This document shows, one piece after another, positions 17,284 to 23,884 of a stretch of 32,009 bases of DNA. The stretch comes from Candidatus Zhuqueibacterota bacterium (lineage in GTDB: Bacteria > Zhuqueibacterota > Zhuqueibacteria > Oceanimicrobiales > Oceanimicrobiaceae), in contig JAJDAG010000116.1 in NCBI GenBank assembly GCA_029262005.1, positions 1 to 32,009 of the forward strand. Direction: 5' to 3'. The notes under the pieces were generated by a model. It ran no database searches, had not been told where the DNA came from, and worked only from the letters and a program-made list of their open reading frames with translations. The translations under genes and the position numbers were made by a program. Position 1 is the first letter of the stretch. The number at the start of each line of letters is the position of its first letter.

Positions 17284-17317
17284 AAAAGCCGTTTCTCCCA
17301 TGCGAAACGGCTTTTTT
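17284..17317 (+). terminator. terminator of the rplM-frr operon
   Basis: AAAGCCGTTTC (17285-17295) pairs perfectly with GAAACGGCTTT (17304-17314), ending in a run of six T (17312-17317). It lies 30 bases after frr. Confidence 0.93.
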
Positions 17318-17365: not shown

Positions 17366-18286
17366 ATGGTTTATAAATCGCTTCTACTTTCACTATTCCT
17401 GTTTTCAAACCTGCATGCACAGTTCTCTATTGACGCACTGGTCAGGTTTGTGCATTCATTTCCACAGCCAGATTCGATAAATCTCCCTCTCTCTAATCCG
17501 CAAGCTTTGTCAATTGATGTCGAAGGCAATGTGTTTGTGCTTGACACCGGCAACAATCGTATCGTCAAATTTGATTCCGCTGGAACAATGGTCGCCAGTG
17601 TTGGCGGGTTTGGTTGGGAAAAAGAGCAGTTTGATCAACCCCTTGATGTGACTGCTGAATCCACGCTGGATGTGTTCATTGCTGATTTCAATAATGAGCG
17701 CATTGAGAGATACGACAAAGATCTGAATTTCATTTCTTCTTTTTCCTCCAACGAGAACACTGCGCCGAACTTGCAGTTTGCATTCCCTGTAGGAATTGAT
17801 GTCTCGCGCCATGGGGAAATTTTTGTTTCAGATAGTGAAACAAATCGTGTTCTCAAGCTCAATTCTTTTGGGAATCCGGTGCTGAGTTTTGGTGATTTCA
17901 ATTCAGGAGAAGGGCAATTACAGGCTGTTGGCAAGTTGGATGTCACTGCAAATGATCGTGTTTATGTGGTGGATGGTGGGAGCCGGGATGTCGTTGTTTT
18001 TGACTATTATGGAAATCTTCTTGTGCGGTTTGGTAAACATGATTTGCTTGAGCCGCAAGGTCTGTTTCAGTCTGAAGAGTATTTATACGTTGCAGACTCA
18101 GGCAAAAATAGAGTCGCTGTTTTCGACAAGGACTTTCGTTTGGCCTTTGCCTGGGGAGCCCAAGGCGACCAATTCGGTGCTTTTGAAAGCCCAAACGACG
18201 TTGCGGGTTTTGACAATCGGGTGTTTGTGCTCGATTCCGGGAACAATCGCGTTCAGGTTTTCACCATCGCCATTAATCCTCGTTGA
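17366..18286 (+). CDS. secreted six-bladed NHL-repeat beta-propeller protein
   Basis: This 306-residue protein has a signal peptide (about residues 1-19, ending LHAQ). About six NHL-like blades follow, each with the pattern D-x-x-G-N-hydrophobic-VLDTGNNRIVKFD; clear copies include FVLDTGNNRIVKFD, FIADFNNERIERYD, FVSDSETNRVLKLN, YVADSGKNRVAVFD and FVLDSGNNRVQVF. The fold is a closed propeller used for binding. It stands just before two outer-membrane barrel genes, so a periplasmic or surface role with them is plausible but unproven. It is read from its own unit after a strong terminator. Confidence 0.88.
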   Translation: MVYKSLLLSLFLFSNLHAQFSIDALVRFVHSFPQPDSINLPLSNPQALSIDVEGNVFVLDTGNNRIVKFDSAGTMVASVGGFGWEKEQFDQPLDVTAESTLDVFIADFNNERIERYDKDLNFISSFSSNENTAPNLQFAFPVGIDVSRHGEIFVSDSETNRVLKLNSFGNPVLSFGDFNSGEGQLQAVGKLDVTANDRVYVVDGGSRDVVVFDYYGNLLVRFGKHDLLEPQGLFQSEEYLYVADSGKNRVAVFDKDFRLAFAWGAQGDQFGAFESPNDVAGFDNRVFVLDSGNNRVQVFTIAINPR

Positions 18287-18358
18287 TGCCTTGTTGGATG
18301 AACTTACAGCCTTTTTTGTTTAACCATTGACACGAAATAGCCTGTTTGAACTCACTCG

Positions 18359-18406
18359 TAATTGCGCGAAAACGAGCATCTTTATCATTTAAACCGAACC
18401 GAGAAA
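18359..18406. repeat. dispersed intergenic repeat, copy 1
   Basis: This 48-base stretch starting with ATTGCGCGAAAACG matches about 37 of 48 positions with 31748-31794, with one gap. Both copies end in GAGAAA and contain ATCATTT. Both lie in non-coding gaps in the same orientation. Confidence 0.55.
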
Positions 18407-18425
18407 CCGGCAACACAACGACACT

Positions 18426-18521
18426 TTGACATCAACAAATTGTATTTCTCTTAGATAAATAGCTTCACGCTCCAGATTCATCATCCTGGCCAACGGGTCG
18501 GATATAGTTTTCGGCCGAAAA
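18426..18521 (+). promoter_or_regulatory. regulatory region of the SprA-like gene
   Basis: A perfect TTGACA lies at 18426-18431 with only weak -10 candidates downstream (e.g. TTAGAT, spacer 19). A 14-bp perfect palindrome TTTTCGGCCGAAAA (18508-18521), 41 bases before the start codon, could be an operator for a dimeric regulator. Confidence 0.3.
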
Positions 18522-18562
18522 TTCACTAAAAAGATAGACGGCTCAGGCTGTTTCTCTCTGCC

Positions 18563-21500
18563 ATGCATAGCGGTTATGCTCATTTAGCAACATACTTTTT
18601 TATTTTTCAGATGCTTTGTTCTGCCTCGGCGTCTGCACAATCTGTTGAGCGTGACAGTACCTTCCTGTCGTTCTTCGAAAAAGAAATTGAGTTGATTGCC
18701 ACAGACACTGGTTTGCAGCACCAATTGCCGGACAGCTTGTTGGTACCTGCAAGTGAAAAGGTTGTGCTTGATTCTCTGGTTTTGCGGCATCGCATTGATT
18801 ACGAAATAAGCTACCTGCACGGCTACCTGGACTTGTTGCGCCCGGTGGCTGCAGGCCGGATTTTGCATGTTCGGTACAATATTTTTCCGTTTGGGTTGAG
18901 CACATCGTACGCTCATCGGCAATCGGTTCGGGCCAAGAGCGCAGCCGCTAAAATCGGGTCTGAGAGAGCGGCTGAGTTCCAGCGGAATTCCAATCCGGTG
19001 AGGCGGGTTTTACCATCGTCGCGTCTAAAGCAAAGTGGTAGCATTGTGCGCGGCGTTTCTGTCGGTTCTAATCAGAATCTGCAAGTGGACTCCGGGCTTC
19101 GTTTGCAGGTTTCCGGGCATTTGAGTGAAAATGTGGAGGTGATTGCTTCGCTCACCGATCAAAATACCCCAATTCAACCAGAGGGCAATACCCAGACATT
19201 GCAGGAAATTGACAAAGTTTTTGTGCAAGTCAAAGGTCCGAAGATGAAAGCGACCCTCGGCGATTACACCTTGAACCTCACTGGTGGACAATTTACAAAC
19301 TATCAGCGGAAACTCGAAGGTGTCATGGCTGAAGGTAACTTTGAACGGGGTGATTTCAAAATGTCGGCTGCGGTTTCTCGTGGTAAGTTTGTCAGTAATC
19401 GCTTTTCCGGGCGGGAAGGCAATCAGGGGCCTTATCAACTGACCGGCGAAAATGGCAACATCAATATAATCGTTCTGGCGGGAACCGAGAAAATATGGAT
19501 TGATGGAGAACTGCTGACACGTGGTGAAAATCACGACTATATTATTGAATACGGCAACGGACAAGTCACATTTACACGTAACCGTCTCATCACGCAGGAC
19601 TCCCGCATCGTTGTGGATTTCCAGTTCTCCGACGAGAGTTTTCAAAGAAATTATTTGGTTGCTCAGGGTGAGACTCGTTTTGCCAACAATAAAATTCAGC
19701 TGCAAACAATTTTTATCAGAGAGAGTGACGACAAAAATAACCCGTTGAGCCTGAATTTGACCGGCGAGGCACTGAACGTGCTTGCGTCTGCCGGTGACAG
19801 CCTGGCGGTCATCAGGGGAGACACTTTGTTGGCTGCGGGCAAAGGTGCATACATAAAAGAGCCCGATGGTGTATTCGTTTTTGTCGGACCAGGCAACGGC
19901 AATTATAATGTCTCTTTCTCTTTTTTCGGTTCGGGCAAGGGCGATTACCGTAACATTGGCCTGGGCCAGTTTGAATTTGCCGGGAAAAATCAGGGCGACT
20001 ATCTTCCATTTATTCTGTTGCCCGCGGCACAGCAACACGACATGCTCGGCTTGAATTTTAGGGCTGCACCAACGTCCTATCTCAACCTTAAGAGCGAAAT
20101 TGCCTTTAGCAAGCTGGATCGCAATCTCTACTCGTCCCGTAACGATGGTGATAACGGGGGCGCGGCTTACCAGTTTCAAATCGAACTTCGGCCGGATTCG
20201 GTGAAACTAGGGGATGTGAATTTGGGGAAATTTAATTTTGCGGGCAAGCTTCGGCACAAGGCGGCAGAATTTCGGGATATTACCCGCGCAACCATTGCTG
20301 AATTTGCCCGGCGTTGGAATTTGCCGGTTGCGCCCGCTTTAACTTCCGAAGATATTTTGGAGCTGCAGGCCGGTTATTTCCCAGTCAAAGGAATGATGTT
20401 TCGCGGCGGCATTGGCCGATTGCAGAAATCCACAACGTTTCAGGCAAATCGATGGGAGCTTGCCACAGCGCTTAAGCGCGCCAGGCTTCCCAACTTGAGC
20501 TATTTGATAGAGTTTATTGACCGCGATGACAACAATGGGGGCGGGGCAAGCGAGTGGCTCAGACAAAAAGGGCGTCTTGATTATGAGGTGAAAAAATTTA
20601 AACCTCTGGTTGAATTTGAAGCTGAGGTTAAAAAAGATGCTCGGGCAGACAGCAGCCAAAGCGGTTTTCGGTTTGAGTCGTTCACTGCGGGCATGGCGTT
20701 TAGCCCCTGGCGCTCGCTCACAACTTCGGCCCGTTTTAATTTCCGCAATGATAAAGAGCGTATGGAGAATCGCTTCTTCGACAAATCCACAGCCGCCACT
20801 CAGACCTATTCGCTTAATCTCAAAAAGTGGCAGGCACTGAATGTCAATGCGTCTTACGTTCACCGTCAACGCGATTTTAAAAATACCGAAGTGCAAGACA
20901 CGCGCACGGATTTGGCTGATTTGCGAATCGGTTACCGACCGGCTTCAGGCTGGCTGCGCAGCAATGCCTACTATCAAATATCGAATACGCAGATTGCCCG
21001 CCAGCAGGAGGTCTTTATTGAAGTGGCGGATGGTGACGGCAACTTCAGATTTAATGAAGATCAAAATGAATTTGAGCCGGATCCTCTGGGGAATTTTGTG
21101 CGCCGTTTGTTTGCTACCAATCAATTTGTGCCGGTCGTCGAGCTCAAGTTTCGGGCAGATATGAGTTTGGCGCCTGCGCGTTTTTTTTCAAAAAAAAGCG
21201 GTAGTCACAAGCTGCCCGCTTTGCTCAGGAAATTAATGACCCCTGTTACTTCCGAGTCGTTTCTTAGAATTGACGAGCGCACAAAAGAGAAGGATGTAAA
21301 AAAGATCTATTTGTTGCGACTGGGTTCTTTTCAACAGGATAGCACGACTATTTTTGGCAGTATTGAGTTTCGACAGGACTTATATTTGTGGAAAAACAAT
21401 CGAAAAATGTCACTGCGCTACCGCTATCGCAATCGAACCGAGTTAAACAATCAATTCGTTGGCGGCGGCCAGGAACGGGCACTACGGGAACAGGAGTTAC

Positions 21501-22006
21501 GTGGCTTGTACCAGTTTTCCAGGCATGTGAGCGCGCAGATTGAATACGGCTATTCCGAAGAAGATCGGCTGTTTAAGTCTCCTTTGCGCGAGGATCGGCA
21601 AATTCGATCGCATGAAGTACAAACGGATCTTGTTTATCGCCCTCAGGGACAATTGGAGCTTGCGACCAAGGCAATATTTAGTGTCAATAAGGATATTTTT
21701 CCGGATCCGGCAACCAGGGCACAGTTGCTCTCATTGAAACCGCGTGCCGTATATTCGCTCAGCAACAAAGGGCGCCTGCAAGCCGAGATTGACTGGACGC
21801 GCGTTACGGTTGCTCCCAAGACACGCCTGATTCCTTTTGAATTGACTGATGGCAGGCGCGCGGGAATCAGCTTTAGATGGAATGTGGGTTTGGAGTACCG
21901 TGTGTCGCAGTACGTGCGCGCAACATTTTCATATTTTGGCAGAAGTGACCCTGATCGGCCTAAAACGCAGCACGTTGCCAAGCTGGAGATGCGTGCTTTT
22001 TTTTAG
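18563..22006 (+). CDS. very large SprA-like outer-membrane beta-barrel protein
   Basis: The 1147-residue protein has a signal peptide (about residues 1-26, ending SASAQ). The N-terminal region (about 158-260) has GSIVRGVSVGSNQNLQVDSG, LTDQNTPIQPEGNTQTLQEI and ATLGDYTLNL, a pattern I associate with the SprA-type outer-membrane translocon and related FCB proteins. Residues 306-365 have GTEKIWIDGELLTRGENHDY then VTFTRNRLITQDSRIVVDFQ, a motif common in uncharacterised giant barrels. The rest is alternating amphipathic strands, and the protein ends in Phe-Phe, the usual outer-membrane beta-signal. No Shine-Dalgarno sequence precedes the ATG. An Omp85 gene follows after 51 bases. The family link is from memory; the specific function is unknown. 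Confidence 0.6.
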   Translation: MHSGYAHLATYFFIFQMLCSASASAQSVERDSTFLSFFEKEIELIATDTGLQHQLPDSLLVPASEKVVLDSLVLRHRIDYEISYLHGYLDLLRPVAAGRILHVRYNIFPFGLSTSYAHRQSVRAKSAAAKIGSERAAEFQRNSNPVRRVLPSSRLKQSGSIVRGVSVGSNQNLQVDSGLRLQVSGHLSENVEVIASLTDQNTPIQPEGNTQTLQEIDKVFVQVKGPKMKATLGDYTLNLTGGQFTNYQRKLEGVMAEGNFERGDFKMSAAVSRGKFVSNRFSGREGNQGPYQLTGENGNINIIVLAGTEKIWIDGELLTRGENHDYIIEYGNGQVTFTRNRLITQDSRIVVDFQFSDESFQRNYLVAQGETRFANNKIQLQTIFIRESDDKNNPLSLNLTGEALNVLASAGDSLAVIRGDTLLAAGKGAYIKEPDGVFVFVGPGNGNYNVSFSFFGSGKGDYRNIGLGQFEFAGKNQGDYLPFILLPAAQQHDMLGLNFRAAPTSYLNLKSEIAFSKLDRNLYSSRNDGDNGGAAYQFQIELRPDSVKLGDVNLGKFNFAGKLRHKAAEFRDITRATIAEFARRWNLPVAPALTSEDILELQAGYFPVKGMMFRGGIGRLQKSTTFQANRWELATALKRARLPNLSYLIEFIDRDDNNGGGASEWLRQKGRLDYEVKKFKPLVEFEAEVKKDARADSSQSGFRFESFTAGMAFSPWRSLTTSARFNFRNDKERMENRFFDKSTAATQTYSLNLKKWQALNVNASYVHRQRDFKNTEVQDTRTDLADLRIGYRPASGWLRSNAYYQISNTQIARQQEVFIEVADGDGNFRFNEDQNEFEPDPLGNFVRRLFATNQFVPVVELKFRADMSLAPARFFSKKSGSHKLPALLRKLMTPVTSESFLRIDERTKEKDVKKIYLLRLGSFQQDSTTIFGSIEFRQDLYLWKNNRKMSLRYRYRNRTELNNQFVGGGQERALREQELRGLYQFSRHVSAQIEYGYSEEDRLFKSPLREDRQIRSHEVQTDLVYRPQGQLELATKAIFSVNKDIFPDPATRAQLLSLKPRAVYSLSNKGRLQAEIDWTRVTVAPKTRLIPFELTDGRRAGISFRWNVGLEYRVSQYVRATFSYFGRSDPDRPKTQHVAKLEMRAFF

Positions 22007-22057
22007 CTTAAAATAGGTTTTTATTACAAATGCACCACAAAATTTTTACAGTTTACC

Positions 22058-23884
22058 ATGAATTGTTCTCATAATAAAACACAACACAGCGGGTTGAAAC
22101 GGCTTCTTCTACTATTCCTGCTGCTTTTGGTAAGCGCTGTTTCAGTGCAAACGAGTAGTGCCTCAGACGAGAATCCCAGGCTCGGGCATTTTCGTGTTGT
22201 CGGCGCACAACGCTTTTCGTCACAGAAAATCATGAAATGGCTTGCGCTAAAGTCAGGCGATACAGTTGTCGTTCCGGATTTGCTGCAGCGGTGCAAAACC
22301 GTTTTGCTGCGTCTGCAAGAAGCGGGCTATTATTTTGCAAGAATTGATTCGGTTGAAAGCGCGTTCAGCACCGATTCTGCCACAGTAGATGTTTCTGTCC
22401 ATTTGACACCCGGAGAGCTGGTGCGTGTTTCGGCTTACACTGTGCGGGGGGTGCCGGAAGAACAAAAGGCGGTTTTGCATCTGTTGCGTTTGCAGGTCGG
22501 CAAAATATTCCGTCCGGTATTATTGGAGCAGGATATTGAAATGCTCCTGCAGCGCTTTGAAAATTCAGGTTTTCCATATTGTCGAGTCGTGTTAGATGAG
22601 ATTGCCTGGAAGCGTGTAGAGCCGGGAGCACAGGCCGGTCTTTCCGTCTCCCTGGAAGTTGAGCCGGGCGCAAAAGTGTCCATTTCCGAAATCGTGATTC
22701 TTGGCAATTCACACACAAAAAATCAAACCATTTTGCGCGAATTACCAGTGGCAATTGCAGACTTTTATCAGCAAAGCCATGTTGACCAGATTCCGACAGA
22801 ACTGATGAATCTTGGTTTTTTCAAGTGGGTAAACCCGGCGCATTTGGAGCTGTTGAACGATGGCAGCGGGCGGCTGATAGTCGAACTGGCCGAGGGCAAC
22901 CAAAATCTATTTGATGGTATTGTGGGGTACAACCCGGCGACGACTCGCAGTGCTGGATTCCTGACCGGCATGGTTGATTTTAAGTTTGGCAATCTTTTTG
23001 GTACGGGGCGACAACTGGCCGCACGCTGGGAGCGGCGCAGTCGCGAAACTCAGGCTTTGGATTTTGGTTACACAGAGCCCTGGATCGCCGGCCTTCCCAT
23101 CGAAGGCACATTCAGATTTCAACAATTGATTCAGGATACCACTTATATTGAACGGGAAGTAACTCTTGGCGCACGCTATCGAATTAGTCGGAGTTTGCGC
23201 CTTACTGCTGGAATTAGCCGGAGTGAGGTTAGTCCGGATTCGGTCGGCACGGTGCGGTTTGGCATTCAACCAAGCTCAAGATTTAACTTCTCTTTGGGGA
23301 TTGCATTTGGCAACATTGATCATCCAATCAACCCCATGCGTGGTGTGGTTTATGAAACCACTTTCAGGTGGTCCGGTAAAAGCAGTGGCAGCACGCCTGC
23401 CGATTCTTCTTTGCAGACTGAAATCACATCAGCGACTCAAAAACACCTGGCAATTGATTTTGAGAGCTACCTGCCTTTGTTTCGTTGGCAAGTCCTCGCC
23501 ATCGGCTTGCACGGCAGGGAAGTCAAGAGCAACGCCTCCATTACGCCAATTCCGGATCAATATCGTTTTGGCGGGGCCAGGACGTTGCGCGGTTATCGCG
23601 AACAGCAATTCCGGGGTGAAAGAGTTGTTTGGACCAACATTGAATATCGCTACATTCTCGGGACTCGCTCACGAGTATTTTTGTTTGGTGATGCCGGCTA
23701 TTTTTCGTTGCGGGAGTTCGCGCCTGCCGGTGAAATTGTTGAAAAAAATAACCTGAAGATCGGTTACGGCTTCGGTGTTCGCCTGGATACACGTCTTGGG
23801 CTGGTTGCGATTGACTTTGGTCTGGGGGAAGAAGATAATTTATCAAGCGCCAAAGTGCATATTGGGCTTATCAATGAATTCTAA
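22058..23884 (+). CDS. Omp85-family outer-membrane protein (BamA/TamA-like)
   Basis: This 608-residue protein has a signal peptide (about residues 13-36). Three POTRA-like domains follow (about 41-118, 122-205 and 207-280, each with a strand-helix-G-Y/F pattern such as LLRLQEAGYYFARIDSV). A 16-strand-type barrel begins near 285 with FGNLFGTGRQLAARWERRSR. The barrel carries RFGGARTLRGYREQQFRG, the conserved Omp85 loop motif, and ends in Phe. Such proteins insert or export outer-membrane proteins. With only three POTRA domains and a length near 600 it resembles TamA or a patatin-like/D15 type more than canonical BamA (about 800 residues). It overlaps ubiA by 11 bases. Confidence 0.9.
   Translation: MNCSHNKTQHSGLKRLLLLFLLLLVSAVSVQTSSASDENPRLGHFRVVGAQRFSSQKIMKWLALKSGDTVVVPDLLQRCKTVLLRLQEAGYYFARIDSVESAFSTDSATVDVSVHLTPGELVRVSAYTVRGVPEEQKAVLHLLRLQVGKIFRPVLLEQDIEMLLQRFENSGFPYCRVVLDEIAWKRVEPGAQAGLSVSLEVEPGAKVSISEIVILGNSHTKNQTILRELPVAIADFYQQSHVDQIPTELMNLGFFKWVNPAHLELLNDGSGRLIVELAEGNQNLFDGIVGYNPATTRSAGFLTGMVDFKFGNLFGTGRQLAARWERRSRETQALDFGYTEPWIAGLPIEGTFRFQQLIQDTTYIEREVTLGARYRISRSLRLTAGISRSEVSPDSVGTVRFGIQPSSRFNFSLGIAFGNIDHPINPMRGVVYETTFRWSGKSSGSTPADSSLQTEITSATQKHLAIDFESYLPLFRWQVLAIGLHGREVKSNASITPIPDQYRFGGARTLRGYREQQFRGERVVWTNIEYRYILGTRSRVFLFGDAGYFSLREFAPAGEIVEKNNLKIGYGFGVRLDTRLGLVAIDFGLGEEDNLSSAKVHIGLINEF

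Follow-up and report, generated by a model that had tools for sequence, protein, structure and literature searches.

SprA is the translocon of the type 9 secretion system (T9SS) and forms a barrel of 36 strands. PorV or Plug binds to SprA at a lateral opening, and CTD cargo is passed through SprA. The pores of chaperone-usher systems have barrels of 24 strands, and in FimD a domain is inserted early in the barrel. TamA carries three POTRA domains. ExbB and ExbD form a proton-channel kind of motor. According to one published account, the extracellular part of SprA exceeds 150 kDa (PMC12611786), and another gives the accepted picture of transport, in which cargo comes in on the periplasmic side, contacts carrier loops within the pore, and exits sideways together with its carrier (PMC10994853). 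We analyzed a contig from a Candidatus Zhuqueibacterota bacterium with a 5.77 Mb genome; "the window" refers to the whole stretch of 32,009 nucleotides that was analyzed.

A sequence-only reading of the window had noted a propeller, a giant barrel, and an Omp85 protein in a row, with both barrel proteins ending in Phe. The row is real: the three ORFs lie on the same strand (Table 1), and the gene of the 1147-residue protein, here named BIG, is separated from the Omp85 gene by 51 bases. BIG ends in ...RAFF and the Omp85 protein in ...NEF. The genes tsf, pyrH, and frr, identified from their translations, are located upstream of the module, and UbiA (directly after Omp85), D-aminoacyl-tRNA deacylase, and Maf genes are located downstream. 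Downstream of frr and before the propeller gene, a hairpin resembling a terminator suggests that the module may be a transcription unit of its own, apart from frr.

Table 1. Features of the module, with positions in the window.
Feature	Position	Strand	Remarks
Terminator-like hairpin	17284..17315	+	between frr and module; 12-pair stem, then T-rich tail; consensus match only
NHL beta-propeller, exported, 306 aa	17366..18286	+	five stretches of NHL repeats, E 5.5e-27 (Pfam); signal peptide by eye
BIG, 1147 aa	18563..22006	+	compact SprA-superfamily giant outer-membrane barrel; models, structure matches, profile homology
N-terminal SprA-motif copy, BIG residues 58-107	18734..18883	+	precedes barrel; hhalign E 2.9e-6
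Predicted barrel, BIG residues 154-1147	19022..22003	+	~38-40 strands of ≥8 residues; strand amphipathicity
Part of most conserved block, BIG residues 198-220	19154..19222	+	mostly low-confidence in model
SprA-shared region with GTEKIWIDGELLTRG motif, BIG residues 286-356	19418..19630	+	between barrel strands (model); hhalign
Insert with repeated GxGxGxY-type units, BIG residues 401-486	19763..20020	+	Gly/Tyr conserved in alignments A1 and A5
Short Omp85, three POTRA stretches, 608 aa	22058..23884	+	Pfam and NCBIfam

BIG was predicted to form a single giant barrel with some 36-40 strands; in model 2, residues 154-1147 comprised about 38-40 strands of ≥8 residues. Model 1, made with 37 sequences, had a pLDDT of 79.2 and a pTM of 0.63; model 2, made with 114 sequences, had a pLDDT of 88.8 and a pTM of 0.80, with five of five models at ≥87. 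Alternating hydropathy was calculated for 38 strands, taken from model 1 with two short doubtful strands omitted, and the mean was 1.88 versus 0.99 (sd 0.12) for shuffled columns. We infer the closure of BIG into one barrel from the secondary structure and the alignments. Structure prediction, proposed in the sequence-only reading as a check, turned out in favor of a single large barrel, along the whole of which SprA could be aligned.

In Foldseek searches, the top four matches to model 1 were all SprA, and model 2 matched SprA at ranks 1-2 and again at ranks 11 and 12. Since the Foldseek superpositions were poor (TM 0.21-0.32, rmsd 27-35), VIA-align 2 was the better guide. VIA-align 2 aligned SprA over 669-681 residues with model 1 and over 717-731 residues with model 2, running the full way from first strand to last (Z 14.9-16.5), and every non-SprA chain that it listed was aligned over ≤382 residues. 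The Z of FimD (17.6) was higher than that of SprA with model 2 (16.5), but FimD was aligned over 356 residues, approximately half of BIG, and covered residues 153-793 only. The barrels of AlgE and LptD were also among the structural matches and covered well under half of the barrel. By sequence, PDB chains gave no match to BIG as a single query and nothing meaningful to BIG profile A1 (best E 0.045).

We further examined whether BIG and SprA are related in sequence. The Pfam scan of the 1147-residue protein gave nothing significant, and the NCBIfam SprA model TIGR04189 matched 50 residues below threshold (E 1.8e-4, 18.8 bits, curated cut-off 200). BIG alignment A5 comprised 113 of the 118 detected relatives (near-duplicates >85% removed) and the window protein, and SprA alignment A4 comprised 18 sequences hand-picked from 25 listed loci. 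Comparison of the BIG profile (114 sequences) with the SprA profile (18 sequences) revealed a match over BIG residues 257-540 with a probability of 96.3 and an E of 1.8e-9. By hhalign, BIG 286-385 was aligned to SprA 637-728 (E 1.1e-8). A suboptimal alignment of BIG 144-278 to SprA 157-318 had an E of 9e-4 and a probability of only 23; with sub-profiles, the same block reached an E of 2.1e-5 and a probability of 77. The two blocks stand in the same order as in SprA. BIG 58-107 also aligned to SprA 646-697, in the same motif region, indicating that the SprA motif occurs twice in BIG. A control comparison against an Omp85 profile gave a probability of 0.3. The profile homology and this null control indicate that BIG is a relative of SprA, beyond a look-alike, and that the two are homologous in sequence and fold. 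The SprA-likeness first read from motifs was thus upheld by collinear profile homology and by the structure matches, and the GTEKIWIDGELLTRG motif was located at residues 307-321.

BIG is nevertheless not SprA, as its length, its score, and the missing bulk indicate. By profile homology that is collinear in more than one block, it belongs to a proposed wider SprA superfamily. It has the single transmembrane barrel of approximately 36 strands by prediction (36-40), not by a solved structure, and it lacks the very large extracellular part of SprA, as the protein has 1147 residues in all, mostly in barrel strands. Three specific identities were rejected: that of the genome's SprA, because the full SprA is on contig 133; that of LptD, because BIG had no PF04453 match and the LptD match of the genome is on contig 93; and that of a chaperone-usher pore, because no usher match was found in Pfam.

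In the alignment with 114 relatives, residues 201-225 were the top-conserved block of 25 residues in BIG, and residues 201-215 had a pLDDT <50 in model 2. Conservation was maximal at residues 151-225 and 276-350, which correspond to the first strands, a loop of low confidence in both models, and the SprA-shared motif. From these conservation peaks, the two regions are the likeliest candidates for a gate or for cargo contact. In the alignment of the two profiles, most of the GxGxGxY insert fell opposite gaps in SprA. Elsewhere in the phylum, relatives with frames of approximately 900-1420 residues (L224:2370-6608, L225:4642-8784, L226:5566-9837, and L227:1-2736) weakly matched the SprA-type motif of BIG, and the motif was upheld with a deeper profile in L226 and L227 only. 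Judging from these sequences, further members of the SprA superfamily may exist.

To describe the conservation of the module, we used 40 phylum loci picked from the 72 match-bearing phylum genomes, with long contigs favored. BIG was present in 72 of the 82 phylum genomes and in 47 of the 49 high-quality ones, nearly always in a single copy. Six-frame profile searches revealed the propeller upstream of BIG in 38 of the 40 loci and the Omp85 downstream in 36, so the neighborhood seen in the window is conserved among relatives. Retention of this extent indicates that the grouping of the genes is not due to chance. Counts of the triad were restricted to the 40 loci because the 80 named loci, the best 80 of 558, overlap with them. 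Neither partner was seen in L054; L064 had no room upstream and no propeller was seen; and L057, L059, and L068 were without Omp85. The Omp85 of L049 was 3.5 kb from BIG, and the BIG frame of L056 was split. The frr gene was seen in 12 of the 40 stretches only; because stretch lengths differ, it may lie outside some of the other 28, in which the propeller was kept in 26 and Omp85 also in 26. The triad was retained mostly where other neighbors differ.

Outside the phylum, the triad was complete in seven loci (L097, L098, L100, L102, L131, L144, and L150), including those titled Zixibacteria (L097), LCP-89 (L098 and L102), and Calditrichia (L150) and one labelled Gemmatimonadota (L100). Five Calditrichota-type loci had the propeller alone beside BIG, two of them without room downstream. 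Neither the propeller nor Omp85 was seen next to BIG in Ignavibacteria-titled loci. Among 20 Bacteroidota contexts, chosen from 121 for large contigs, the propeller was upstream of BIG in three (L208, L209, and L213), and Omp85 was beside BIG in none. The absence of an adjacent Omp85 in Bacteroidota and Ignavibacteria indicates that this partner is not universal. In five Bacteroidota contexts (L205, L207, L210, L211, and L212), BIG immediately preceded genes of the ExbB and ExbD types, the latter in two copies, and ribosomal protein L9 was nearby; the Pfam identities were from L205 only. In G041:C5:2131776-2135044, BIG consisted of two adjacent frames, reflecting a sequencing error or a broken gene.

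Pfam analysis of the 608-aa protein revealed the POTRA domains (4.2e-19, three stretches) and the barrel (1.1e-19) of an Omp85 protein. The genome contained 16 matches to the Omp85 domain. An 805-residue BamA-like gene was found on another contig in a canonical-looking bamA context (neighbors identified by eye), and another Omp85, also on a contig other than the window, was followed by a 1294-residue ORF, named TamB by size and position only. The module Omp85 was distant from the BamA-like and TamA-like proteins of the genome (about 22-23% identity) and formed a clade with its syntenic relatives. It was rejected as BamA, with 128.5 bits against the OM_YaeT cut-off of 297 and the bamA locus lying elsewhere, and as TamA, with 35.1 of 625 bits for ATportTamA, UbiA as the next gene, and the TamA-like protein and TamB-sized ORF lying elsewhere. 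The module Omp85 is distinct from the BamA and TamA of this genome. Its own clade, with BamA and TamA elsewhere, supports, without proving, a dedicated assembly factor, and a role as the dedicated inserter of BIG is plausible. The same genome also encodes a 1368-residue exported-looking protein between uppS-like and bamA-like genes (L219:3046-7149).

The sequence-only reading had seen no other T9SS gene beside BIG. This is correct for the window and incorrect for the genome, which has SprA, PorV-family proteins, and CTD cargo: a full SprA on contig 133 (782.3 bits summed), 12 PorV-family (PorV_fam) matches above the cut-off, and at least 150 T9SS cargo tails (150 scored CTD among 175 candidates). 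The search for T9SS genes proposed there was successful for the PorV family but not for GldM, whose profile had no match in this genome, possibly through divergence. With many CTD tails and PorV-family matches and nothing found for GldM, this T9SS may have a divergent motor. All 82 phylum genomes had SprA at E ≤0.001, 80 of them above the cut-off. SprA was also present in 18 of 20 further genomes that carry BIG. Among 198 Bacteroidota genomes, 154 had SprA and 121 had BIG; every one of the 121 also had SprA, 33 had SprA without BIG, 44 had neither, and none had BIG without SprA (Fisher p 2.6e-23, a value that ignores relatedness). The correlation may follow phylogeny. The argument for a separate system from missing T9SS genes was therefore not supported, because the genome has SprA, PorV-family proteins, and CTD cargo and, in the Bacteroidota sample, BIG occurs only in SprA-bearing genomes. 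The 33 genomes with SprA alone mean that T9SS does not strictly require BIG, provided that no BIG relative in them escaped detection by divergence or by falling in a missing portion of an assembly.

In our preferred reading, for which we consider the chances to be evenly balanced, BIG is a second, compact SprA-superfamily protein that has a propeller as partner and an Omp85 of its own and serves as a channel working beside the T9SS. After Sec export, BIG would be inserted into the outer membrane, probably helped in this phylum by the adjacent Omp85. It would act as a wide, gated channel for large cargo, either folded proteins or another polymer, and its pore may be closed or guided by the motif domain shared with SprA and by the insert rich in glycine. 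The NHL propeller would dock on BIG as a partner or gate. BIG would work beside the type 9 system and not in place of SprA. More tentatively, BIG could provide FCB-group bacteria with the pore for a second route of protein export or surface assembly beside the T9SS. This would be a minimal translocon of the SprA type that has an Omp85 inserter of its own and a propeller gate; such a route would have been unseen so far because no family model covers BIG.

We consider it rather unlikely that BIG has no route of its own and is an accessory of the ordinary T9SS, acting as a biogenesis or energy-coupling anchor or as an alternative translocon for some CTD cargo. The perfect nesting of BIG within SprA-bearing genomes, the abundance of CTD cargos and PorV-family matches in its own genome, and the ExbB-/ExbD-type genes beside BIG in 5 of 20 Bacteroidota contexts are consistent with such a role. 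However, the 33 SprA-bearing Bacteroidota genomes without a BIG match argue against it, none of the genes adjacent to BIG in the examined contexts was recognised as a core T9SS component, and the ExbB/ExbD neighbors may be chance operon company.

The matches to AlgE and LptD raise the idea that BIG, like these two proteins, is a channel for a lipid or for a polymer other than protein and resembles SprA through ancestry only. This appears improbable, as those alignments are far below that of SprA, the genome has a separate LptD profile match, and polysaccharide synthesis genes were not recognised among the conserved neighbors. Even less probable is a role of BIG in outer-membrane structure or adhesion that involves no transport. 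BIG has no known substrate, and, judged from the order of elements in model 2, the insert and the internal motif domain may completely occlude its pore; yet conservation is highest in the first third of the barrel and the SprA-shared region and not in candidate surface loops, and the length of BIG leaves no room for large surface domains.

Searches of Pfam with the window protein and six relatives, and of NCBIfam with the window protein and five relatives, found no model for the BIG family in the copies searched. In searches of open-licence PMC papers, no paper whose listing named a second SprA-like family turned up. A compact, widely conserved relative that shares many genomes with SprA would allow the essential pore of SprA to be told apart from its cap. 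It would also point to an unexamined function in outer-membrane transport or assembly in Bacteroidota and related phyla.

Among known systems, the chaperone-usher pores FimD and PapC resemble BIG in having a barrel with a domain inserted early, as in FimD, but the alignment spans just half of BIG, there is no match to an usher profile, and no pilin or chaperone gene was recognised in the module. The module Omp85 shares POTRA domains and an Omp85 barrel with TamA (with TamB) and BamA and has three POTRA stretches, the number of POTRA domains in TamA; unlike them, it belongs to its own clade and has no TamB-like neighbor, and TamA-TamB-like and BamA loci are present elsewhere. Compared with SprA/Sov (TIGR04189; PDB 6h3i, 6h3j, 8gl6, and 8gl8), BIG is approximately half as long, is without the large extracellular mass, has the GxGxGxY insert and the N-terminal motif copy as extra elements, scores far under the SprA cut-off, lies adjacent to NHL and Omp85 genes, and coexists with a separate SprA. 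BIG and SprA/Sov nevertheless have in common a giant barrel that aligns end to end, a motif region and, in collinear order with it, another block within the first strands, and their occurrence in the same genomes.
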